From the IMG/VR virus record IMGVR_UViG_3300030061_003534, positions 1 through 22,354 of that record: a stretch of 22,354 bases of DNA; one strand, written 5' to 3'. Each line of letters begins with the position of its first letter. The stretch's first letter is position 1. The DNA comes from a virus. The notes under the pieces are model-generated. The model saw only the letters and a list, made by a program, of their open reading frames with translations. It had not been told where the DNA came from and did no database searches. Shown here piece by piece: positions 880 to 22,354 of the stretch. A program made the position numbers and the translations under genes.

Positions 880-1446
880 ATGGCTGAATCAACAACATTA
901 GAAATTATACAAGGACTATCACAAGCGGCAGCAAATGCTTATGATGGTGTTCATGACGAGAGATTTACACTTGATGGACAAGTTCGTAAGGTTGGACTTC
1001 GTCGTGAAGAGGGGTGTCCTCTTATGGACAGCCGAGTAAACGATGGTTTCTCTGTGAAGTTTTACGGAAATAAAATTTGCATAAATTACCAATCCGACAT
1101 TCGTCTTAAAGACATCTATAACACAAAAGATTATGAAGGAGATATCGTTCGTCAATTGACCGAGATTAAAAAGTTCCTTCAAAAAGAATATAAGGCGATT
1201 ACTGGTAAATCCATCACACTGACAGCAGATGGGGAACCAAAAGTTATTGCACAATCAACATCTCGTGTCCGCTCATTTGTTCAGGCTTATCAACACTACA
1301 AAATTAGTGGTGTAAAAGAAGAACCTATCATGGATCCAGCAGTTGAAGATAGCAGAAAAATTACACGAGACTTTCTAGAAAAGTTCAAAGCAGCAAAGCG
1401 TCCCTCAAACGATAAAAGAAAAAAGGGCGATAACGAGAAGAAGTAA
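880..1446 (+). CDS. 188-aa protein upstream of terminase; small-terminase candidate by position
   Basis: This is a 188-aa protein preceded by AAAAGGAAT, and its stop overlaps the terminase ATG (TAATG). The N-terminal third is MAESTTLEIIQGLSQAAANA followed by a charged stretch with REEGCPL. The middle is beta-rich (GFSVKFYGNKICINYQSDI). A helix (IVRQLTEIKKFLQKEYKAIT) and a beta segment follow, and the tail from about residue 165 is strongly basic (KAAKRPSNDKRKKGDNEKK). In T4 the gene directly upstream of the large terminase is the small terminase gp16, which is of similar length, so position and the basic tail make this a candidate. I see no clear coiled-coil oligomerisation core like that of gp16. 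A conserved protein of unknown role is equally likely. Confidence 0.85.
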   Translation: MAESTTLEIIQGLSQAAANAYDGVHDERFTLDGQVRKVGLRREEGCPLMDSRVNDGFSVKFYGNKICINYQSDIRLKDIYNTKDYEGDIVRQLTEIKKFLQKEYKAITGKSITLTADGEPKVIAQSTSRVRSFVQAYQHYKISGVKEEPIMDPAVEDSRKITRDFLEKFKAAKRPSNDKRKKGDNEKK

Positions 1447-3029
1447 TGGCTTTTTCTCTTTCAAAGAAAGAAATTGTAAAAGAAATCGTAAAGTCCGGCA
1501 AAGATCCGCAATACTTCATAAATAATTATTGTCGTATTTCACATCCAATGCACGGGCTTATTCCGTTTAAAACTTATCCCTATCAAGATGATTTGATAAA
1601 TGATTTTAATGATTTCCGTTTTACAGTTATTCTTAAAGCAAGACAGTTGGGTATCTCAACGATATCTGCTGCATATGCTGTTTGGTTCATGTTGTTTCAC
1701 AGAGACAAAAACATACTTGTAATTGCAACTAAATTCTCAACAGCAGCGAATCTTGTAAAGAAAGTTAAGAACATTATGCAATACCTTCCGGAGTGGATGA
1801 GAGTTGCAAAAATTAAAGTTGATAACAGAACTTCCTTTGAACTCTCAAATGGATCCCAGATTAAAGCCGCTTCAACTTCTGGGGATGCTGGTCGTTCCGA
1901 AGCACTTTCTCTTCTTATTATTGATGAGGCTGCTCATATTGACGGACTTGACGATCTGTGGACTGGTCTTTATCCCACTCTATCTACTGGTGGTCGCTGT
2001 ATTGCCTTGAGTACTCCGAATGGTGTTGGGAATTGGTTTCACAAGACATACGTCGCAGCAGATAACGGAGAGTCAGACTTTAAACCAGTAAATCTACCGT
2101 GGGATGTGCACCCTGAAAGAGATCAAGCGTGGTTTGAGAAAGAGACAAAAAATATGTCTCGTAGGCAAATTGCACAAGAATTAGAGTGTAACTTCAATAC
2201 ATCAGGCGATACTGTTATTCACCCAGAAGATATTGCTTGGCTGCAAGAACAAATTAAAGAACCAACTTATAGGACAGGATATGATAGAAATTTTTGGATA
2301 TGGGAGAAGTACCGAGATGGTGCTCATTACCTTCTCGTTGCCGATGTTGCTAGAGGCGATGGCGCTGACAACTCTGTTTTTCATGTATTAGATGTAGGAA
2401 AAATGGAAATAGTTGCCGAATATCAAGGCAAACCATCTTTAGATATGTACGCTCAAATGCTATATTCAGCAGGTATGGAATACGGTAAATGCCTTCTGGT
2501 TGTGGAGAATAATGGTATTGGTATTTCTGTTTTTGAGAAGCTTAAGGATTTAGGATATGAGAATCTTTATTATTCTGTTAAGGGCACACACGAGTTTGTT
2601 GAATCTTCACAGGGTGAATTTATGAATAATGCAATTGGCGGCTTTACAACTTCAACGAAAACAAGGCCCCTTATTGTAGCAAAACTCGAAGAATTTATAA
2701 GAAATAAAATTATCAAGATACCATCTGCACGAGCATTTGATGAATTTAGAACTTTTATTTGGAACAACGGTAAACCACAAGCCATGAGATCTTACCATGA
2801 TGATATAATAATGTGTCTTTCTATTATGTGCTGGGTGAGGGACACAGCACTTGAAGTGTCGCAAAAAGATCTTGAATATCGTAAAGCTATGATTGATGGA
2901 ATGTATATGAAGAAGAGTGTCATGAACACAACCATAAAAGGGCAAGATGGGTATAATGCCGACTTCGAAACTAAATATAAAGAAGAGTTAAATATAGCAA
3001 GAAATTTTGCTTGGATATTCAAAGGATAA
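1446..3029 (+). CDS. 17: Terminase large subunit (T4 gp17-like packaging ATPase/nuclease)
   Basis: This is the motor that pumps DNA into the prohead through the portal and cuts concatemers into headfuls. The N-terminal ATPase has a deviant Walker A (KARQLGIST, residues 64-72), a hydrophobic Walker B (LLIIDEA, 156-162, catalytic Glu161) and a coupling motif (ALSTPN, 187-192). The C-terminal RNase H-like nuclease has acidic metal ligands at Asp300 (LLVADVARGDGAD), Glu354 (VVENNGIG) and Asp452/453 (HDDIIMCLS), the pattern of T4 gp17. At 527 residues it is shorter than T4 gp17 (about 610), mainly at the N-terminus. It overlaps the 188-aa gene by one base and sits three bases before the portal gene. 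All key residues appear intact. Confidence 0.97.
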   Translation: MAFSLSKKEIVKEIVKSGKDPQYFINNYCRISHPMHGLIPFKTYPYQDDLINDFNDFRFTVILKARQLGISTISAAYAVWFMLFHRDKNILVIATKFSTAANLVKKVKNIMQYLPEWMRVAKIKVDNRTSFELSNGSQIKAASTSGDAGRSEALSLLIIDEAAHIDGLDDLWTGLYPTLSTGGRCIALSTPNGVGNWFHKTYVAADNGESDFKPVNLPWDVHPERDQAWFEKETKNMSRRQIAQELECNFNTSGDTVIHPEDIAWLQEQIKEPTYRTGYDRNFWIWEKYRDGAHYLLVADVARGDGADNSVFHVLDVGKMEIVAEYQGKPSLDMYAQMLYSAGMEYGKCLLVVENNGIGISVFEKLKDLGYENLYYSVKGTHEFVESSQGEFMNNAIGGFTTSTKTRPLIVAKLEEFIRNKIIKIPSARAFDEFRTFIWNNGKPQAMRSYHDDIIMCLSIMCWVRDTALEVSQKDLEYRKAMIDGMYMKKSVMNTTIKGQDGYNADFETKYKEELNIARNFAWIFKG

Positions 3030-3032
3030 TAA

Positions 3033-4985
3033 ATGGCTAATAGAAAGAAGAACCTAGGGAAAAATCCCTACAATCCGGAGAATGGTCTTTTTCGTTCACT
3101 AACAAGATTATTTTCTGGTCCAATTACACAAAGAAGGACCCAACAAGGTCGTGCATTGCGCAGACGACACTTGGATACTTATGCATCTCGCTTCACTTCC
3201 GCTTCAGGAAGACAATTCAAAAAGCAAGAATATAACCCTATGAACATCATGACAGTTAACATGATATCAAATAGAAATAGAGCAGAGCGTTATGTTGATT
3301 TTGACCAAATGGAATATACACCAGAATGCGCTTCTTCATTGGATATCTACGCCGATGAAATGACAACACACTCATCTCTGCAACCGATGCTTAGAATTAA
3401 ATGTCCAAACGATGAGATAAAAACAATTCTTGATAATCTTTATCACAACGTTTTAAATATTGAACACAACCTGTTTGGTTGGTGTAGAACAATGTGTAAG
3501 TATGGAGACCTCTTTCTTTATTTAGATATCGAAGAAGGTATGGGTGTACGAGCCACTATCGGTCTACCTCCTCAAGAAATTGAGCGCTTAGAGGGCGAAG
3601 ATGAATCTAACCCCAACTATGTACAGTTTCAGTGGAATTCTGGGGGCATGACCTTAGAAAACTGGCAAATGGCACACTTTAGAATACTTGGCAACGACAA
3701 ACATGCCCCTTATGGAACATCTGTGTTGGAACCAGCAAGAAGAATTTGGAGACAACTTACTCTCCTTGAAGACGCTATGATGGCATACCGAATTGTACGT
3801 GCTCCGGAGAGACGCGTATTTAAAATTGATGTCGGCAATATTCCTCCTCAAGATGTCGAACAATACATGCAAAAGGTTATGACTCAAATGAAACGTCATC
3901 AGGTCGTGGACCCAAAAACAGGTCGACTTGATTTAAGATACAACCCATTATCAATTGAAGAAGATTATTATATTCCTATTCGCGGCACCTCAAATACAGA
4001 TATTGTTTCTCTCAAAGGTGGAGAAATGACAGCGCAAATTGAAGATGTAAAGTATCTCAGAGATAAGTTGTTCTCCGCACTTAAAATTCCTCAATCCTAT
4101 CTTACGATGGGCGACGGTGCATCTGAAGACAAAACAACACTTGCACAAAAAGATATTAGATTTGCAAGAACAATTCAAAGATTACAACGAGTTATCATTG
4201 CAGAGCTTGAGAAGATTGGAATCATTCACCTATTCACCATGGGTTTCCGTAATGATGATCTTCTTAGTTTCAAATTACAATTAAACAATCCATCAAAGAT
4301 TGCTGAACTTCAGGAACTAGAACACTGGGACAAGAAATTCTCAGTTGCTGGAAATGCAACGGAAGGATATTTCTCAAAACGTTGGGTTTCCGAAAATCTA
4401 TTTGGTCTCTCGGAAGAAGAAATAATAAGAATGCAACGTGAGATGTTCTACGATAAAAAGTTTGGTGCTAGCCTAGAAGCCGCTGCGCAACCCGCCGAAG
4501 GTGGTGATGCTGGTGGAGGTTTGGGTGATCTTGGTGGAGATGATGCTGGTGGTGGTCTTGACTTAGGCGGAGATGATGCTGGTGGTGGATTAGATTTAGG
4601 TGGTGATGCCGGAGGCGAGGCTGCTGGGGACACGAGCCCTGGTGCCGAAGGGGGTGATCAAAATGACGACGTTCTCTTGGCTGAACCACCGGCTAAACGC
4701 GATGACGAGCCAACATATAAACGTGGCAAATATAAGCGTCATCAATCTTCATATTCAAAAGGTGGTAGAAAGAAGCACTTCAAAAACCAAGCTACTGGGG
4801 AATACGGAAATACATACAGAACAACCTTTCAAGGCAAGTCAGGCTTTGGTGGCTTAGATTCTCTTGGTCGTGGAATTACAGAAAATAATGAAACTGAAGA
4901 AGAGAAACTATTTAAAACATCAAAGCAAGTTGATAACTTGATTGAAAGTCTACTAAAAAAGGTGAAAGAAGATGAAGCACAATAA
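3033..4985 (+). CDS. 20: Portal vertex protein (T4 gp20-like) with long repetitive C-terminal tail
   Basis: The dodecameric portal forms the DNA gate at one head vertex, starts prohead assembly and docks the terminase. T4-type signatures are clear: NRAERYVDFDQMEYTPECAS in the N-terminal part, GTSVLEPARRIWRQLTLLED then IVRAPERRVFKIDVGNIPP at about residues 230-275, and the crown-side segment LKIPQSYLTMGDGASEDKTT with helix RFARTIQRLQRVIIAELEKI. Similarity ends near residue 485. A tail of about 165 residues follows: four Gly/Asp-rich 11-residue units (490-533), an acidic stretch, a basic stretch (KRGKYKRH, GGRKKHFKN, about 561-585) and a C-terminal helix (VDNLIESLLKKVKEDEAQ). T4 gp20 has 524 residues and, from memory, no such tail. 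The stop overlaps the next gene by 14 bases. Confidence 0.96.
   Translation: MANRKKNLGKNPYNPENGLFRSLTRLFSGPITQRRTQQGRALRRRHLDTYASRFTSASGRQFKKQEYNPMNIMTVNMISNRNRAERYVDFDQMEYTPECASSLDIYADEMTTHSSLQPMLRIKCPNDEIKTILDNLYHNVLNIEHNLFGWCRTMCKYGDLFLYLDIEEGMGVRATIGLPPQEIERLEGEDESNPNYVQFQWNSGGMTLENWQMAHFRILGNDKHAPYGTSVLEPARRIWRQLTLLEDAMMAYRIVRAPERRVFKIDVGNIPPQDVEQYMQKVMTQMKRHQVVDPKTGRLDLRYNPLSIEEDYYIPIRGTSNTDIVSLKGGEMTAQIEDVKYLRDKLFSALKIPQSYLTMGDGASEDKTTLAQKDIRFARTIQRLQRVIIAELEKIGIIHLFTMGFRNDDLLSFKLQLNNPSKIAELQELEHWDKKFSVAGNATEGYFSKRWVSENLFGLSEEEIIRMQREMFYDKKFGASLEAAAQPAEGGDAGGGLGDLGGDDAGGGLDLGGDDAGGGLDLGGDAGGEAAGDTSPGAEGGDQNDDVLLAEPPAKRDDEPTYKRGKYKRHQSSYSKGGRKKHFKNQATGEYGNTYRTTFQGKSGFGGLDSLGRGITENNETEEEKLFKTSKQVDNLIESLLKKVKEDEAQ
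4500..4631 (+). repeat. Four 33-bp tandem units in the portal gene
   Basis: Four consecutive 33-base units start at 4500, 4533, 4566 and 4599. They encode GGDAGGGLGDL, GGDDAGGGLDL, GGDDAGGGLDL and GGDAGGEAAGD. Units 2 and 3 are the closest pair and give identical peptides with a few silent changes. Outer units are degenerate. In-frame unit gain or loss would change only the length of a flexible acidic linker. Confidence 0.9.
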
Positions 4986-7165: not shown

Positions 7166-7471
7166 GTGAATTTATTGTATTTTATTCTTGCATGTTATGG
7201 GATGACTTTTATTCTCGTACATGGAAAAATCTTCGAAGACTTGAGACCAGAAAAAGATTATACAAAGAAATGGAACACATTATTTCATTGTCCTTTGTGC
7301 ATGGGCTTTTGGGTTGGTGTGTTTATGTGGGCGATAAATGGTTTTACGGAACTATTTACATTTGAATATTCATTAATTAACGCATTTTTGTGCGGATGTA
7401 TCTCTGCTGGTACATCTTACATTTTATCGATGTTAGTTGATGATTTTGGAATAAGGATTATTAAAAAATGA
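7166..7471 (+). CDS. DUF1360-like membrane protein with CxxC
   Basis: This is a protein of about 101 residues. I prefer GTG at 7166 (AGAGG ends 5 bases upstream) over TTG at 7163, which is too close to the ribosome site. A hydrophobic N-terminal helix (LLYFILACYGMTFILV) is followed by a charged loop, then WNTLFHCPLCMGFWVGVFMW, where a CPxC motif runs into a Trp-rich membrane segment, then a third hydrophobic stretch (LINAFLCGCISAGTSYILSM). The CPxC-(x)GFWVG signature fits the DUF1360 family, whose function is unknown. It overlaps the next gene by ATGA. A three-pass inner-membrane protein is unexpected among head genes. It could act in the host membrane late in infection, but nothing here shows how. 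Confidence 0.75.
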   Translation: MNLLYFILACYGMTFILVHGKIFEDLRPEKDYTKKWNTLFHCPLCMGFWVGVFMWAINGFTELFTFEYSLINAFLCGCISAGTSYILSMLVDDFGIRIIKK

Positions 7472-7686
7472 AATTGACATCCCAAAGAATTAAAGAATTG
7501 ATAAAAGAAGAAATAGAAAAAATCAATGAAGAAGAAGAGGAAGAAGAAGAGGCATTAATACAAGCTTGTGCTAATGCAATTATATCCGCTGCAAGTAAAA
7601 TTGAATCAGAGGGACAAGAAAAATTTGAACGAAAAGTTATATATAATCTAGAAGTGCTTATTCAAAATTTTAAATACGGTTATTAA
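7468..7686 (+). CDS. 72-aa acidic protein with capsid-targeting-like leader (class A)
   Basis: The start overlaps the previous stop (ATGA). The leader MKLTSQRIKELIKEEIEKIN plus Glu21 matches the leaders at 250 and 507 at protein level but uses different codons, so it is not a recent copy. I-N-E at 19-21 aligns with their putative cut sites. A run of eight Glu follows (residues 21-28, encoded by a GAA/GAG run at about 7528-7551), then a helix (ALIQACANAIISAASKIESE) and a Lys/aromatic end. T4 has small acidic prohead-core proteins (gp67) encoded between portal and protease genes, and this gene fits that size, charge and position. Direct homology is not visible. Confidence 0.72.
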   Translation: MKLTSQRIKELIKEEIEKINEEEEEEEEALIQACANAIISAASKIESEGQEKFERKVIYNLEVLIQNFKYGY

Positions 7687-7801: not shown

Positions 7802-8374
7802 ATGAAAACAAAACTTATTATGGAATCTTGGAGAAGATTTTTAATTGAAGGTCCACAATCCACAATTCACTTTATGGATTGGTTGGTTCAAAAAACAGAT
7901 CGCGTACACTCAAAACCCGGACAGGGTTCTATTTTTGCTATACCGACAGAACAAGTTGTTAGTAAGGTTAAAGAAATAGCATCTAGTGCTGGAGATGTCG
8001 AAGAAATTGCAAACACTTCCGGAGTTCTTTCTTCTAGTGTTCCAAACATTGGTTACGATCTAGTTGTTCCTGTTGTAAATGGGCAACCAATGTTAAACGG
8101 AAAACCTCTAGACGGAGAGATAACAACAGCTCAAAAAGAAGAAGGTAGAGGAACAATCGATGTTCCTGCGATTATTACTGATGAGCCGATGGAAAGCTTT
8201 TCGACCGATGAGCTTACTATAATAGTGAGACCGATGAAGGATTCAGAAGGCAATGTACTTCCAAATGAATATATAATTCTCTCTGCATTTCCAGGTTCCA
8301 CTGGGGCTGATCTTAGGGCATCGGAATGGGCTGGTAAATATATGGTGGTTATTCCCAAGGTGCCATCAGAATGA
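7802..8374 (+). CDS. 190-aa protein with capsid-targeting-like leader (class B)
   Basis: GGAG lies 7 bases upstream of the ATG. The N-terminus MKTKLIMESWRRFLIEGPQS parallels the 6425 gene (WRKFLLKES) and has L-I-E before Gly17 as a likely gp21 cut site. The body has a helical N-terminal part (HFMDWLVQK, EQVVSKVKEIASSAGDVEE), then a beta-rich half (NIGYDLVVPVVNGQPMLNGK, STDELTIIVRPMKDSEG, EYIILSAFPGST, WAGKYMVVIPKVP). The last segment recalls the C-terminal sheet of small secreted toxin or nuclease domains, but I see no catalytic residues I can assign. The stop overlaps the start of the gp21 gene (ATGA). A prohead-core or packaged cargo role is inferred from leader and neighbours. Confidence 0.75.
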   Translation: MKTKLIMESWRRFLIEGPQSTIHFMDWLVQKTDRVHSKPGQGSIFAIPTEQVVSKVKEIASSAGDVEEIANTSGVLSSSVPNIGYDLVVPVVNGQPMLNGKPLDGEITTAQKEEGRGTIDVPAIITDEPMESFSTDELTIIVRPMKDSEGNVLPNEYIILSAFPGSTGADLRASEWAGKYMVVIPKVPSE

Positions 8375-8982
8375 AAAAACAATTATTAACAGAATTTAAC
8401 GAGCTTTGCAAAGACGGAATTTGCCGAGATCTTCTTTCTGAAAGAGAGAAGAGAGAAGTTGAAAACGGTACATTATATTTGTCTGGCCGTATTCAAACTG
8501 CTGACAAGAAGAATGGAAACGGAAGATCTTATCCATTTAAGGTTTTAAAGCGTGAAATGGACAATTATAAAAAGATTGTTCAAGATAATCGCGCATGTGG
8601 AGAGCTTGATCACCCTGATGACTCTGTTATCAATCTTAAAAATGTTTCTCACATGATTACAGATGTATGGTGGGAAGGCAAAGATGTTATGGGCAAGATT
8701 AAAGTGCTTGATACACCATCTGGTCGTATCCTCAAGGATTTAATTAATGCCGGTGTTAAACTTGGAATTTCTTCTCGTGGGCTTGGTTCTGTTAAAGAAT
8801 CAATGGGAAGCACTGTTGTTCAAGAGGATTTTGAACTTATTTGTTTTGATATAGTCTCAGAACCATCAACACCAAATGCTTACGTCTATCCAAAAGAGCA
8901 AAGTAGAATGTACGAAAACAAAATCAACGAAGCCAAACAAAACATCGTTGATGATTTGTTTAAGAAAATATTGGAAGACTAA
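8371..8982 (+). CDS. 21: Prohead core protease (T4 gp21-like)
   Basis: This serine protease of the T4 gp21 type is built into the prohead core and, once active, cuts scaffold, capsid protein and internal proteins after [L/I]-x-E. The 203 residues are close to the T4 length (212). Visible landmarks are the fold start GTLYLSGRIQTADKKNGNGR (33-52), GELDHP with catalytic His81, a second conserved His94 (NVSHMI), GISSRGLG with nucleophile Ser134 or Ser135, and FDIVSEPSTPNAYV with conserved Asp160. The N-terminus (MKKQLLTEFNELCKDGICRD, then L-L-S-E at 21-24) has a candidate self-cleavage site. It overlaps both neighbours (ATGA upstream, TAATG downstream). The C-terminal helix (DDLFKKILED) probably belongs to the inhibitory or core-binding tail. 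Confidence 0.95.
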   Translation: MKKQLLTEFNELCKDGICRDLLSEREKREVENGTLYLSGRIQTADKKNGNGRSYPFKVLKREMDNYKKIVQDNRACGELDHPDDSVINLKNVSHMITDVWWEGKDVMGKIKVLDTPSGRILKDLINAGVKLGISSRGLGSVKESMGSTVVQEDFELICFDIVSEPSTPNAYVYPKEQSRMYENKINEAKQNIVDDLFKKILED

Positions 8983-9548: not shown

Positions 9549-9958
9549 AAAAGAACGAATTGAAAAATATGCTAAAGCCGCTAATTAAAGAGTGCATCAA
9601 AGAGGTAATCTTTGAAGAGGGCGCTCTTTCTACCATCATTAGTGAAGTTATGAAGGGAACCTCCGGATCTCAGCAAATTGTTGAGACAAGGACACAACAA
9701 CCCAAACAAGATTTTGAGAGACAAGAAAGAAAGATGGAAGAAGCGAAGCAACGAAGAAAAAAACTTTTAGATTCAATTGGTACTGATGCCTACAACGGTG
9801 TTAACCTTTTTGAAGGAACCACGCCTGCTCCCGCTCCACAACAACAAGGCCAAGGACCTCTTGACGGCGTTGCCCCAAGCGATCCCGGCGTTGACATTTC
9901 GTCTATCTTCTCTGGTCATTCGTCAAAGATTTGGCAAAAACTATCAGGAAAAAATTAA
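9545..9958 (+). CDS. 137-aa coiled-coil protein of head cluster
   Basis: It starts inside the previous stop (ATGA). The N-terminus MKKNELKNMLKPLIKECIKE, then VIFEEGALS, is a long amphipathic helix related in style to the class A leaders, with F-E-E before Gly26 as a possible gp21 site. A Gln/Glu/Arg/Lys coiled coil follows (DFERQERKMEEAKQRRKKLL, about 59-78). A Pro/Gln linker (TPAPAPQQQGQGP) then leads to the short end GVDISSIFSGHSSKIWQKLS. No enzymatic motif is present. It looks like a small structural or scaffold-associated protein. The stop overlaps the bS21 gene (TAATG). Confidence 0.82.
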   Translation: MKKNELKNMLKPLIKECIKEVIFEEGALSTIISEVMKGTSGSQQIVETRTQQPKQDFERQERKMEEAKQRRKKLLDSIGTDAYNGVNLFEGTTPAPAPQQQGQGPLDGVAPSDPGVDISSIFSGHSSKIWQKLSGKN

Positions 9959-10164
9959 TGGCTGTAAATCACAAGGTAAGGCCTCGTAGAAACGAGAGCG
10001 GCGAAAGACTCATAAAGAGATTCACTAGAAAGATTAAGAAGCTTGGCCTCTTAGAAGAGGTTAAAGATAGAAGACATCACAAGAAGAAATCTGATGTCAA
10101 AAGACGGGCTAAGCAGAAAGCCATTGCACGAAGAAAGAAAAAAGAGAAGAAAAATACTAATTAA
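9958..10164 (+). CDS. rpsU-like: Ribosomal protein bS21 homologue
   Basis: I chose ATG 9958 (TAATG coupling, MAVNHKVRPRRNESGERLIK) over an upstream in-frame ATG at 9931 that would overlap the previous gene. The 68 residues align along bS21: conserved Val-Arg N-terminus, Asn-Glu, ERLIKRFTRKIKKLGLLEEV (bacterial LRRFKRSCEKAGVLAEV), an RR segment, then (K)xSxxxRRAKxxAxxRxKK, and a very basic tail (RRKKKEKKNTN). The aromatic F-Y-x-K-P of E. coli bS21 is replaced by HHKKK. bS21 binds near the 3' end of 16S rRNA and aids initiation. It is known to occur in several phage groups. Its place among late head genes suggests that ribosomes are altered when virion proteins are being made. Exchange into host ribosomes is not shown. 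Confidence 0.8.
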   Translation: MAVNHKVRPRRNESGERLIKRFTRKIKKLGLLEEVKDRRHHKKKSDVKRRAKQKAIARRKKKEKKNTN

Positions 10165-10181: not shown

Positions 10182-10535
10182 ATGTCAAACTTTCAATATA
10201 CAGTAGGCTTAAACAATGTCGGTTCCTACCAAGTCGCTGGGTCACCATATCTCACAGCATCAACAATAACTGAGCAAGAAAAACAATTCAGTTTTCCTAG
10301 GGTAACAAAAAATATTACAATTCACAATACTGGATCGGCGGATATATATTTTTATTTTGTGTCCTCTCCAAGTGTCAAGTTGGTATTGCCGGCTGATAAA
10401 AAAATGAACTTAGATGTTAAGTGCTCTTCAATATATGTCTCTGGATCTACACAAAGTGGAGTTCAACTTCTGGGAGAACTTACAAATATACCAGAGGAAC
10501 GGATGTTCTCTCTTGTTGGGCTGGAGGGAGTATAA
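10182..10535 (+). CDS. 117-aa virion-type beta protein, paralogue 1
   Basis: CGGAG lies 8 bases before the ATG. The protein is mostly beta: MSNFQYTVGLNNVGSYQVAG, SPYLTAST, FPRVTKNITIHNTGSADIYF, then MNLDVKCSSIYVSGS and a closing ELTNIPEERMF. The first 27 residues are nearly identical to those of the gene at 10906, and the ends also match (LTNIPxxRM). The gene at 10535 is a more distant member. There are no membrane, signal or catalytic features. A small beta-sandwich decorating the head, neck or a fibre is the likeliest role. It has no T4 counterpart that I recognise. Confidence 0.85.
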   Translation: MSNFQYTVGLNNVGSYQVAGSPYLTASTITEQEKQFSFPRVTKNITIHNTGSADIYFYFVSSPSVKLVLPADKKMNLDVKCSSIYVSGSTQSGVQLLGELTNIPEERMFSLVGLEGV

Positions 10536-10905: not shown

Positions 10906-12012
10906 ATGAGTGATAAATTTAAATACACAACAGGTCTAAATAATGTCGGCTCTTATCAAGTCGCGGGTTCTCCGTATGTAACGGCATCAACGGTGAGTCA
11001 AGATACAGAGCTAGAAATACAGTTTCCAAGAGTCACGAATAATTTGACAGTTAAACTTGATTCTGCTGGTTTAAAAAGTATAGCTATAAGTGGTAGTATC
11101 TTCGCAAAAACAGCAGATGAAATATACACCGACGATGGTCATGACTATAGTGTTACCATGTGGGTTTCTGCTAGTAATGACCTGACATCAAATGATCAAG
11201 AATCAGTTTGGAGTTTTACTACTGGAAACGCAAGAAATCTTTTAAAAGAAAAAAATAACAGATGGCAATTTTTAATCCAAGATGTTGGGGCAACACAGAC
11301 TGCTGTGGCAAGTCCTGCAAATAGTGTTCCGTCTGGTTGGCAGTTTATTGCATGCGTTGCTAAGGATCTTGGAGGCAGTATAATAGCTTCTTTATCTTTA
11401 AATGCGGCAACCTCCGGAGGTAATTTTGGATCACAAACAAAAACAACTGCAAATGATATCGATAATACGGTTGGAGATACTAATTTTAACATTGGCCCAA
11501 TAGCATCCGGTAGAGATGATGGAGCAGCGATAAAAGTTCGTGATATTATATTGTGGAACGGCGCTTTGAGCACAGCAAATGTTTCAACATTATATAATTC
11601 AGGGCAATATTATAATCCAAGCCAACTGACTGTCTTTAGCAAACTAGTTTGGATCAAAGACAACTTTGTTACAGATGCTCCACAAAATTATGGTACTACC
11701 GGAGGAGTCTTTTCACTTCAAGATTCCGGTTCAGGTGATATTTTTCAAATTTCTTCTGATTCGCCTTTTGGTAGTTCCGGAGGAGAACTACGAGTTCACT
11801 ATAGATCAACCGGTTCTCTTCCAAATGTTGCAAACAACAAACACTATTGGACTTTATCTTCTCAAGATGAGGAGATCAAAATGAATGTAAAAACAAAAGA
11901 AATTTATCTTTCTGCTGTAGATGGAGATTGTGATTTCTCTTTGCATGCAGACTTAACAAACATTCCTGCCTCTAGGATGTATCAACACACAGGATCGGGA
12001 GTGGATGAATAA
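10906..12012 (+). CDS. 368-aa virion protein, paralogue 3 with nested LamG-like domain
   Basis: Two bases separate it from the previous stop. Residues 1-52 (KYTTGLNNVGSYQVAGSPYV, FPRVTNNLTVKL) and 293-368 (ELRVHYRSTGS, EIKMNVKTKEIYLSA, ADLTNIPASRMYQHTGSGVD) together make one copy of the fold encoded at 10182. Between them, at the loop where paralogue 1 has NTGSAD, sit about 240 extra residues with a LamG/concanavalin-type jelly-roll look: DYSVTMWVSAS, SVWSFTTGN, RWQFLIQD, GWQFIACVAKD, then KVRDIILWNGALSTANVSTL. LamG-like domains often bind glycans or cell surfaces, so this copy may display a receptor-binding module on a shared base. The LamG assignment rests on pattern, not alignment. Confidence 0.85.
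   Translation: MSDKFKYTTGLNNVGSYQVAGSPYVTASTVSQDTELEIQFPRVTNNLTVKLDSAGLKSIAISGSIFAKTADEIYTDDGHDYSVTMWVSASNDLTSNDQESVWSFTTGNARNLLKEKNNRWQFLIQDVGATQTAVASPANSVPSGWQFIACVAKDLGGSIIASLSLNAATSGGNFGSQTKTTANDIDNTVGDTNFNIGPIASGRDDGAAIKVRDIILWNGALSTANVSTLYNSGQYYNPSQLTVFSKLVWIKDNFVTDAPQNYGTTGGVFSLQDSGSGDIFQISSDSPFGSSGGELRVHYRSTGSLPNVANNKHYWTLSSQDEEIKMNVKTKEIYLSAVDGDCDFSLHADLTNIPASRMYQHTGSGVDE
11062..11782 (+). other. LamG-like domain inserted in a loop of the 10906 protein
   Basis: This is the segment of the 10906 gene (residues about 53-292) that has no counterpart in paralogues 1 and 2. Its ends fall in the loop between two strands of the base fold (LTVKL and ELRVHY), so host-fold continuity is kept. 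Boundaries are accurate to perhaps 10 codons. Confidence 0.65.
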
Positions 12013-19188: not shown

Positions 19189-19213
19189 TCTAAAGTCACA
19201 AGTTTTATCTTGG

Positions 19214-19239
19214 GGGTCGGGCTTTGTCCGACCCTTTTT
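19214..19239 (+). terminator. Strong intrinsic terminator
   Basis: GGGTCGG (19214-19220), loop GCTTTGT and CCGACCC (19228-19234) form seven perfect GC-rich pairs, followed by TTTTT. It lies 25 bases after the 572-aa gene and before the ribosome site of the next gene. It should end most transcription from upstream, which means the next gene needs read-through or its own promoter. Confidence 0.88.
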
Positions 19240-19263
19240 CTATTTATAAAAAGGAGAAATTTT

Positions 19264-20490
19264 ATGGCATTTAAATATTCTAAAGGATCAACAGTTCAAG
19301 GAGATATCAAAGCAGCAGATGATACACAGAGAGATACTCTTATAGATTTTGGCGAAGATCAGATTGATCTCCAAACTTCTGGTTCTGTTCGTTTAAGAAT
19401 CCAAAACTCAGAAACAACTGTTAATACTCCTCTTACAGTATCCGGAGAAATCAGCGCCGCTGGTATGGTTCAACCTTTAAACACAATAACTGGTGCCACG
19501 GGACAAGTTGATCATGATTGCTCTAATTCTCATATTTTTTATCACAGTAACATCGCAGGTAACTTTACCCCCAACTTTACTCAACTTGACCTTTCTAATA
19601 GTGAAATAACCAGTATTTCTATTATTTTAGACCAAGGAGGTACTGCTTACCTTCCAGATGCTTACAAAGTGAACTCAACTTCTTCTGCGTTATATTGGGA
19701 AGGCTCAACAATGCCAACCGGTTCAGCAAACAAAGTTGATACAGTAGATCTTAAGATATTGAGAGTTTCAGATTCTTATAACACTTTTGCTCGCTTCCAT
19801 AACACTATTGAGATCTCTAGTGGAGGTGACGGCGTATCAATACCCAATAATGCTCTTGTGTTCTTGGATGCTTCAGATGCAAACAGCTATGGAGGTTCCG
19901 GAACAACTTGGTCGGATATCTCTGGTCAAGGAAACCACGCAACACTTGTAAATTCGCCATCATTTAGCAGCTCAGATAAGTGGTTTGATTTTACAGGAGG
20001 AAGTTCACATCATGCTACTCTTCCATCCGGATTCGCTGATTTTACAAATGGGGCAACCTTCTTTTTTGTAGCTGATTTAGACTCTGGGGACCATTGGGAA
20101 AGGCTTATTGATTTTAGTGGAGGAAGCAGTACTCCTATAAATGTTGGTCGAAAGCAAAGCGGCACCACTATGAAGCTAGAATACTACAACCCTTCTAAGA
20201 CAGGAACAGAAACAAATATAATATTGAACAACACACTTGCTAGTTATTGTGTTACCACAGATGGTGTTAATGCTAAGTTTTATCGCAACGGTACGTTGAT
20301 TACAACTAATTCATTTGATAAAGTCCCAGATAACAACACAAGAACGCAGAACTATATTGGTCGCTCTAGAAGCGGTGGTGATGCGTATTATGATGGCCAA
20401 TTGGCTGTTGTTGGGATTTTTAATAGGGATTTATCTGCTAGTGAAATTTCAGATCTTCACAACCATTATGACTCTATTTACAGTTTATAA
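19264..20490 (+). CDS. 408-aa fibre-like protein with C-terminal LamG domain
   Basis: ATG 19264 has AAGGAG 8 bases upstream. The frame extends back to 19210, but that start lies inside the terminator and is rejected. The N-terminus (MAFKYSKGSTVQGDIKAADD, then LIDFGEDQIDLQTSGSVRLR) follows the fibre head plan of many phages. After a beta-rich middle, residues about 195-408 form a LamG/concanavalin-like domain: ALVFLDASDANSYGGSGTTW, SDISGQGNHATLV, ATFFFVADLDS, YCVTTDGVNAKFYRNGTLI, NYIGRSRSGGDAYYDGQLAV, then VGIFNRDLSASEISDLHNHY. A glycan- or surface-binding adhesin tip is a reasonable inference. It sits between the terminator and the scaffold gene. Confidence 0.86.
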   Translation: MAFKYSKGSTVQGDIKAADDTQRDTLIDFGEDQIDLQTSGSVRLRIQNSETTVNTPLTVSGEISAAGMVQPLNTITGATGQVDHDCSNSHIFYHSNIAGNFTPNFTQLDLSNSEITSISIILDQGGTAYLPDAYKVNSTSSALYWEGSTMPTGSANKVDTVDLKILRVSDSYNTFARFHNTIEISSGGDGVSIPNNALVFLDASDANSYGGSGTTWSDISGQGNHATLVNSPSFSSSDKWFDFTGGSSHHATLPSGFADFTNGATFFFVADLDSGDHWERLIDFSGGSSTPINVGRKQSGTTMKLEYYNPSKTGTETNIILNNTLASYCVTTDGVNAKFYRNGTLITTNSFDKVPDNNTRTQNYIGRSRSGGDAYYDGQLAVVGIFNRDLSASEISDLHNHYDSIYSL

Positions 20491-20568: not shown

Positions 20569-21777
20569 ATGTCTTCAATGTTGGAACAAGCTATCGTAGA
20601 TGCACAAGCATTACGAGAGGCAGCGCTAAAAAATGCCGAACAAGCACTTATTGAAAAATTTGCACCGCAGATCAAAGATGCAGTAGAAAGTCTATTGGAA
20701 GAGAACCAAGCACCTGCTAAAAGAAAAGCCACTTATGAAGGGCAAGTTTACAGTGTGATGGAAGTTGATGGTGGCAAGGCAACAATTCAGAAACAAGGTG
20801 AAAAACCTTTTGTTGTTTCTGAAGCTGAATTGTCTGAAGTAGATGAAAATCTTCTTCAAGAAGAAGAAGTGACTGTGGACGGCGGAGCTGCTCCTTCGGC
20901 GGCTGTAGAAGCGCCTTTTGCTGGTTCTCCTGTCTCTGACCCTGATCAAACTGTTGAGTTCTCAGTGGATATTAAAGAGCCAATATATGAGTTTGATCTT
21001 CAAGCCCTCAAGAACGATTTAGAAAATGAAGAACAACCTGATGAGTCTATGGAAGGCCCTTCTGACCTTCTTAGTGATCTCGGAGGAGAGGAAGAGACCG
21101 AAGCAGCACCGGATGAAGAAGGTGATGATCTTCTTGGTGGACTTGAACTTCAAGAGTCTTTAGATGAAGGTAACGATGAACTTGTAAATGAAATTATGAA
21201 TCTCATGAATGAAATGTATGACGAAGACGAAACAGAAGTTCTAGAAGAAGAACTTATCGTTGACATGGGCGAAGTAAAAGATGGTACGTTTCGTACTGAT
21301 AAAGAAACTTTAGAATATTACAAAAAAATGCAAAAAGCCAAAGATTACGCTGAGGCTAAAGCAGAGGAAAATGAGGGCCTCAAAGAAACACTCAAACGAT
21401 TTAAGTTAAAAAATAAACAATACAAAGACGCTGTTGAGAAGTTGTCCGAGAAACTTAACGAGACAATGCTCTCCAACGCTAAATTGATTTATTCAAATAA
21501 AACTTTAGGTGATGCCTCCTTGAATGAGCGACAAAAAAATAAAATTGTTGAAGCCATCGCCAAGGCAAGAACTCCCGAAGAAGCAAAGAATCTTCATGAG
21601 GCTCTGAATGCTACGGTAACTTCTGGTCAGGATAAGAAATCCCCTAGAACCCTAAGCGAGTCTGTACAGAGAAAATCTACCCTCTCAGGAATTCTTCCAC
21701 GTAGAAATAAGCAAGTTAATGAAAGTGAAGAGCATACATTTGCCGATCACATGAAAAAACTTGCTGGCATTAAATAA
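20569..21777 (+). CDS. 22: Prohead core scaffold protein (T4 gp22-like)
   Basis: This is the major internal scaffold around which the capsid protein assembles. It is later degraded by gp21. The 402-aa protein starts with helices (EQAIVDAQALREAALKNAEQ, then KFAPQIKDAVESLLEENQ) and a small beta segment (YEGQVYSVMEVDGGKATIQK). A very acidic, disordered middle spans about 100-240 (EEEVTVDGGAAP, LGGEEETEAAPDEEGDDLLG, DEDETEVLEEE). A Lys/Glu coiled coil follows (about 245-310), then the gp22-type C-terminal motif SLNERQKNKIVEAIAKARTP. Many L-x-E sites are present. T4 gp22 is shorter (269), so the acidic middle is enlarged. Its place directly before gp23 is the T4 order. Confidence 0.9.
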   Translation: MSSMLEQAIVDAQALREAALKNAEQALIEKFAPQIKDAVESLLEENQAPAKRKATYEGQVYSVMEVDGGKATIQKQGEKPFVVSEAELSEVDENLLQEEEVTVDGGAAPSAAVEAPFAGSPVSDPDQTVEFSVDIKEPIYEFDLQALKNDLENEEQPDESMEGPSDLLSDLGGEEETEAAPDEEGDDLLGGLELQESLDEGNDELVNEIMNLMNEMYDEDETEVLEEELIVDMGEVKDGTFRTDKETLEYYKKMQKAKDYAEAKAEENEGLKETLKRFKLKNKQYKDAVEKLSEKLNETMLSNAKLIYSNKTLGDASLNERQKNKIVEAIAKARTPEEAKNLHEALNATVTSGQDKKSPRTLSESVQRKSTLSGILPRRNKQVNESEEHTFADHMKKLAGIK

Positions 21778-21799: not shown

Positions 21800-22354
21800 A
21801 TGTCTATTATTGAAACACTTACAGAAGGCATCGTAAACCGTGACATGAAGAAGGAGGGCTCTGCTCTTCTTTCTAAGTGGGGAAAAACCGGTCTACTTGA
21901 AGGTCTTCAATCAGAGCACCAGAAGTCAACTATGGCTCGCTTGCTCGAAAACCAAGCAAAAGAACTTCTTCGCGAATCTAGCTCTATGGGAGCAGGTGAT
22001 GTTGAAGGTTTCGCTGCTGTTGCTTTCCCAATCGTTCGTCGTGTATTCGCCGGACTTATCGCTAACGAACTTGTTAGTGTACAACCAATGAGCCTTCCAT
22101 CAGGACTCATCTTCTTTCTTGACTTCGTATATTCACCATCATTGAATGGATCCGATACTCAAGATAGTCGTTTTGGTAACCTCAAAAACGCTTCAATCTA
22201 TGGTACTAACAAAGTTGGTGCTGGAGTAATTGACGGTGTTAGTCTTGTTGATTCTCAAGGTGGCGACCTTTCACAAACTCGTGGAATGGTTGGTTATGCT
22301 TATGGCTCTCCTGAATCTACTGGCTTGGCCGGATCTGTTTCTGTAACCGGTTCT
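21800..22354 (+). CDS. 23: Major capsid protein (T4 gp23-like), 3' end outside window
   Basis: The first 185 codons are present and the frame stays open to the window edge. The propeptide MSIIETLTEGIVNRDMKKEG to ARLLENQAKELLRESSS matches the gp23 N-terminal region. L-R-E at 57-59 before Ser60 is the likely gp21 maturation cut (T4 cuts after Glu65). The mature part begins GAGDVEGFAAVAFPIVRRVF, then LIANELVSVQPMSLPSGLIF, the gp23 signature GxxxPxxRRxxxxLIAxxxxxVQPMxxPxG. The codons are biased (CGT, CTT, GCT), as expected of a very abundant protein. It would form the hexamers of the head after scaffold removal. Confidence 0.96.
   Translation, partial: MSIIETLTEGIVNRDMKKEGSALLSKWGKTGLLEGLQSEHQKSTMARLLENQAKELLRESSSMGAGDVEGFAAVAFPIVRRVFAGLIANELVSVQPMSLPSGLIFFLDFVYSPSLNGSDTQDSRFGNLKNASIYGTNKVGAGVIDGVSLVDSQGGDLSQTRGMVGYAYGSPESTGLAGSVSVTGS

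Follow-up and report, generated by a model that had tools for sequence, protein, structure and literature searches.

A predicted LamG-like domain nested in a loop of one of three tandem jelly-roll paralogues and exchanged as a cassette among relatives of a Far-T4-like phage

Three consecutive genes in the window, an entire IMG/VR virus fragment of 22,354 bp, encode the paralogous proteins P1, P2 and P3 (Table 1), and in P3 the fold of P1 is interrupted at the turn NTGSAD. From profile and fold comparisons, the segment that fills the break is predicted to be a LamG/ConA-like jelly roll with putative ligand binding. Between near-identical relatives this segment has been replaced wholesale, as a cassette, and the tree of the inserts conflicts with that of the platforms around them. 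The sequence comparisons and structure models described below give good support, for architecture and for evolution alike, to a display platform whose binding module can be replaced.

Table 1. Genes and subregions of the 22,354-bp window referred to in the text
Feature	Position	Strand	Basis or remark
Terminase	1446-3029		T4-type packaging gene
Portal gp20, T4-type	3033..4985	+	Pfam Portal_T4, E 2.6e-77
Prohead protease gp21	8371..8982	+	Pfam Peptidase_S77, E 1.9e-33
bS21-like gene	~9958-10164	+	Pfam Ribosomal_S21, E 8e-10
P1, intact platform, 117 aa, eight-stranded jelly roll	10182..10535	+	
P2, intact platform, 122 aa	10535..10903	+	
P3, split platform with nested LamG, 368 aa	10906..12012	+	
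N-terminal half of the P3 platform (strands 1-3; residues 1-50)	10906..11055	+	Profile split, model strands
Inserted cassette, residues 51-289	11056..11772	+	Exchanged as a unit in relatives
LamG core, residues 76-226	11131..11583	+	Pfam Laminin_G_3, fold and profile matches to ConA-like domains
C-terminal half of the P3 platform (strands 4-8; residues 290-368 plus stop codon)	11773..12012	+	
Fibre-like gene, 1424 aa	12012..16286	+	Directly 3' of P3; label by eye
Probable scaffold gene	at 20569		Judged solely from its place
Major capsid protein gp23, truncated by window end	21800..22354	+	Pfam Gp23, E 6.1e-12

The initial annotation had proposed that the proteins encoded from 10182, 10535 and 10906 are paralogues, and the coordinates it gave for the three reading frames were correct. 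BLAST with P1 as the sole query found P2 at 36% identity (E 9.5e-16) and P3 in two pieces, the first matching P1 residues 3-49 (64% identity, E 1.7e-17) and the second matching residues 71-113 (35% identity, E 1.3e-3). A profile of P1/P2 homologues matches both halves of P3 (N part E 3e-15, C part E 1e-11), which excludes chance and confirms the paralogy. The profile split analysis, in which the window P3 is L006, placed the split between P1 H48 and T50/G51, within the NTGSAD turn that had been named, with a score of 203 at this turn versus 183 at the next loop. The insert measures ~239 aa (residues ~51-289), in agreement with the roughly 240 extra residues counted at first. P1 and P2 matched no family in Pfam or PHROGs, only scattered single matches were obtained among 61 homologues, and the platform family had no sequence match in the PDB.

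AlphaFold models were built from input alignments that held only the relatives collected in this analysis. The P1 model (pLDDT 80) has eight strands, at residues 21-29, 34-37, 40-49, 55-58, 67-69, 74-77, 83-88 and 92-104. The P3 model has a pLDDT of 65 overall, ~80-89 across most platform strands and mostly 70-85 in the insert, parts of which are of modest confidence; its platform strands lie at 22-30, 35-39 and 42-54, then, after the LamG domain, at 294-298, 315-317, 323-326, 332-338 and 342-354. Compared by strand order rather than by coordinates, the eight platform strands of the two models pair one to one in the same sequence, with LamG between strands 3 and 4, so that the P3 flanks are predicted to rebuild the P1 fold on both sides of the insert, as had been expected. 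Folds similar to that of P1 are found in cupin/double-stranded beta-helix proteins, in a ring protein of Bacillus endospore appendages and in many small, uncharacterised phage proteins.

The identification of the insert comes from several comparisons that agree. Pfam Laminin_G_3 matches P3 residues 76-226 with 29.1 bits (cut-off 27.6, E 1.3e-6), and the same family was found in 36 of 39 split relatives at E <= 0.01 (best E 8e-19). The insert profile matches solved ConA-like modules, among them arabinanase, pentraxin and sialidase lectin domains, and Foldseek matched the insert model to pentraxins and LNS/LG domains with E values down to 1e-6; the LamG-like jelly roll first proposed from sequence alone is borne out by these matches. 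The top names among the Foldseek/PDB matches were clostridial neurotoxin binding domains, but such names stem from no more than the ConA-like lectin fold in common, and a toxin reading was rejected. In P3 relatives (e.g. L041:6426-7457) the LamG core is followed at once by a conserved 'LTSWWAFEDN...DRIGSNNL'-like stretch. Many LamG proteins of other kinds have such a segment before the core, and the segment order could reflect a circular permutation.

Judged by its portal and gene order, the window phage appears to be Far-T4-like. Its head genes are of T4 type, and the assignment was made because the portal is nearest to those of Mel-JY01 (43.5% identity) and Flavobacterium phage immuto (39.7%), then RM378 (30.8%); identity to cyanophages is ~25%, and by portal the nearest cultured relatives lie outside the T4/cyanophage core. 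Far-T4 phages, namely RM378 and uncultured aquatic clades that are widespread in water (PMC4360716, PMC7198788), have the T4-type head genes in common with the window phage, in the same order of terminase, portal, protease and MCP, but differ in that P1-P3 were not found among the tested Mel-JY01 and immuto genes. A tblastn search with five queries found no P1-P3 homologue in 50,697 phage records, no cultured relative came to light, and a scan of bacterial and archaeal genomes from 84,980 species also found none and thus gave no hint of the host. P1-P3 are located within the head-gene block. The fibre-like gene has no family match in Pfam or PHROGs and is followed in the window by three further structural-looking genes, and sheath and tube genes are present in several relatives.

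Some further features of this region were observed. A phage-encoded bS21 homologue, whose sequence might hint at the host, lies directly 5' of P1; S21-like ORFs occupy the same spot in many relatives, and Microcystis phage Mel-JY01 likewise has one ahead of the head genes. A second LamG domain was found at the C-terminus of another structural-looking protein (window 19210-20490, plus strand; Laminin_G_3 E 2.8e-16, residues 264-414). It was missed by the P3-cassette profile and probably belongs to a separate LamG lineage. Several small plus-strand ORFs (217-486, 507-863 and 7468-7686) encode otherwise different proteins with the common start 'MKLT.Q..K.LI(K/R)EE', also present in L001, which might serve to direct them to scaffold or capsid.

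The initial annotation had suggested comparing relatives for presence, absence or replacement of the insert, and such a comparison proved informative. IMG/VR scans yielded at least ~165 loci, with some contigs represented more than once and, in one scan, the best 80 of 526 relatives kept. All sequences compared are metagenome assemblies, several contigs end near the cluster, and the counts are lower bounds. Nested LamG was found in all of at least 54 distinct split copies, among them L097, which is L001 truncated at a contig end, versus none of at least 118 distinct intact copies, using a LamG profile built from 39 split proteins, of which the Pfam count given above is independent. Insert length ranges from ~190 to ~1,520 residues, the largest inserts holding two or three LamG domains; L013, L020, L021, L149 and L169 have such P3 proteins, with inserts of ~500-1,500 residues and both platform halves kept. 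One large clade has a single intact platform copy without nested LamG, where 'single copy' is firm only if the contig runs on downstream. In some members of this clade (L067, L082/L083 and L087) a separate LamG gene lies directly downstream of the platform gene, and this free-standing LamG may show how things stood before nesting. In L025 (5011-7500), P1 itself reaches 830 residues; the part added at its C terminus bears a weak likeness to bacterial Ig-like surface domains (below cut-off), and P1 may act as a carrier too in some phages.

The position of the LamG domain is not the same in all relatives. Strand 4 (GGELRVHYRS) comes after LamG in the window clade. Its counterpart in L028, L029, L037, L047, L057 and L161 (such as GELRVHF) comes before LamG, which puts the domain in the next loop in these six, a placement with score margins of ~14-25 in the profile split analysis. 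Across 54 proteins, 18 are clearly of the first insertion type and 21 of the second, with 15 lacking a clear assignment. Because a tree with all P3s as one clade is compatible with the data (p-AU 0.56, or 0.63 without L161), the idea that independent insertions are a necessity was dropped; on the sequences, one origin followed by a shift of site and a second insertion appear equally possible. Since every split copy found carries LamG, a recent single graft was rejected. The view of P3 as a grafted display platform is therefore retained for the exchangeable module, which near-identical phages swap, and abandoned for a one-off graft. By these comparisons the nested LamG is an old, family-wide design with cassette turnover on top.

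The turnover was seen at several levels of relatedness. Within the window clade, mean identity is 58-61% for P1, P2 and both P3 halves versus ~28% for the insert, and divergence from one locus to another correlates with that of P1 strongly for P2 (r 0.9) and weakly for the insert (r 0.34). The contigs of L014 and L017 are 98.6-99.6% identical across ~17.9 kb with unrelated cassettes: P3 residues ~29-294 of the 19.3-kb L017 contig do not align with L014, the other exceptions being a ~220-bp stretch near the L017 start and the last 450 bp, which lie outside the compared segment. The left junction of L017 is repeated in L016, from the same metagenome. In L018 and L019 the platform ends are 100% identical and the inserts 23%, and by cassette L018 groups with L022 and L019 with L005. 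Pairs joined by their platforms are rejected by the insert data (p-AU 3e-5 for L018+L019, 7e-54 for L046+L084), and a similar break or excess divergence was found in L046/L084, L031/L036 and L026/L027. Both flanks of the insert are at least 80% identical in 25 locus pairs; in 18 of these the inserts themselves are less than 50% identical. In some pairs, L033/L115 for one, the replacement extends to the entire P3 gene, platform included. A search for a near-identical partner of the window phage found none, so that exchange is seen in relatives rather than in this genome.

A working that would fit these observations, and the one we favour as reasonably probable, is that P1-P3 form a surface platform, that LamG binds a variable target and that exchange of the cassette changes adhesion specificity. 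P1, P2 and P3 would be jelly-roll platforms, most likely on the surface of a Far-T4-like particle; their virion location is suggested by the gene neighbourhood. The platform would attach P3 to the particle, perhaps together with P1 and P2, and LamG, displayed from a platform loop, would offer the binding face. Its target would be a variable surface, most likely a host cell-surface glycan; glycan or cell-surface binding and an effect on host choice are what the pattern of variability points to. Host-cell adhesion is our first choice because wholesale exchange matches the pattern reported for marine-phage host-recognition genes (PMC3909814, PMC7029224). The cassette would be flanked by homology, with the N-terminal motif of the three tandem copies on one side and the conserved strands 4-8 on the other. 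Because homology lies on both sides, ordinary recombination between co-infecting phages could swap the cassette, and sometimes the whole gene, with attachment undisturbed, and we infer homologous recombination as the route. Phages of the same lineage would thereby change their adhesion specificity. A more particular proposal is that the head block holds a dedicated socket, in which the loop of one tandem paralogue takes LamG cassettes singly or in arrays, recombination occurs at the conserved ends, and a module of the head or neck, not the tail fibre, retargets adhesion; this we put forward tentatively, as a possibility that is less likely than not.

Alternatively, the LamG domain could serve to attach the phage to matrix or to particles, or its part could be structural alone. 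The main rival to host adhesion, modelled on a proposal for capsid Ig-like domains, is that the P3 module adheres to mucus, polysaccharide gels or particles; virions would then stay close to hosts, but the module would not select among them. In keeping with such a role, carbohydrates are frequent ligands of LamG/ConA-like folds, and P3 belongs to the head block, at a distance from the tail genes (P genes at 16.7-18.5 kb and sheath at 35.6 kb in G001), but wholesale exchange among near-identical phages is more typical of host-recognition genes (PMC3909814), and we consider this rival unlikely, if worth keeping in view. A structural insert that docks a co-varying virion protein and diverges with its partner is improbable. 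In the window clade P3 is followed immediately by the large fibre-like gene, so it could dock the fibre; however, the L014 and L017 sequences downstream of P3 are ~98% identical despite their unrelated cassettes, which shows that the cassette does not vary with its downstream neighbour, and gradual drift cannot give identical platforms with unrelated inserts. It is very improbable that P1-P3 are non-structural and merely encoded within the head block, as the bS21-like gene upstream, itself not structural, might suggest, given the gene order from gp21 to gp22/gp23, which is conserved among distant relatives, and the match of the jelly roll to many small phage proteins, albeit uncharacterised ones. 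Least credible of all is that nesting is real and the swaps are assembly chimeras: assemblers can cross over at conserved flanks such as the platform ends, and all contigs are metagenome assemblies, but the break is seen in many unrelated pairs, and separate metagenomes share a cassette together with its context (L031=L032=L034, L084=L086=L088 and L022=L023).

To place the cassette-bearing platform of the favoured account among known systems, we compared it with other variable or displayed modules. T4 Hoc displays Ig-like domains on the virion surface and is an accessory module thought to bind glycans. P3 would resemble it in presenting a binding module on the particle, a location that for P3 is deduced from genes alone, but its module is LamG instead of Ig and is nested in a jelly roll. 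Proteins diversified by retroelements (Mtd and its relatives) likewise pair a constant scaffold with a binding domain that varies, but they change by targeted point mutation, whereas P3 would change through whole-domain exchange. Reverse transcriptase (RVT_1) gave no match in nine related contigs, several of them fragments, and a diversity-generating retroelement was rejected for P3 on this ground. The insert scores above the model cut-off of PF13385 (Laminin_G_3, ConA-like lectin/glucanase superfamily) and is ConA-like by profile and fold, but differs in that it is embedded in a second fold and swapped as one cassette. In studies on metaviromic islands (PMC3909814) and on the pelagimyophage host recognition cluster (PMC7029224), lectin-like or carbohydrate-binding proteins form a hypervariable class associated with host recognition in marine phages. 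Such proteins likewise vary between otherwise similar phages, and the P3 cassette differs between otherwise near-identical genomes among our relatives as metaviromic-island host-recognition genes do; the difference is that here the domain sits within a conserved platform, in a head block instead of a tail-fibre island. The nested arrangement is not described in the consulted passages of the two papers, and a literature search found no report of a nested, exchangeable LamG. LamG domains, lectin-like variability in marine phages and nested domains are all of known kinds, and what appears new is their nested, exchangeable combination.

Little is known of host recognition in uncultured Far-T4 phages; for the marine ones, Bacteroidetes have been proposed as hosts (PMC7198788). 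The present analysis points to a platform family, without Pfam, PHROG or PDB match beyond scattered single matches, in which a loop bears an exchangeable lectin-like domain. The near-isogenic natural pairs, which differ almost solely in the cassette, make the target of the module directly testable. The P1/P3 platform would be a natural fold that tolerates the exchange of nested domains, apparently at two neighbouring loops. In summary, the swapping of LamG cassettes suggests a plug-in module, as yet a prediction, for sticking to different surfaces, and if the head block does hold a dedicated socket, adhesion to hosts or other surfaces would be retargeted via a head- or neck-associated module.
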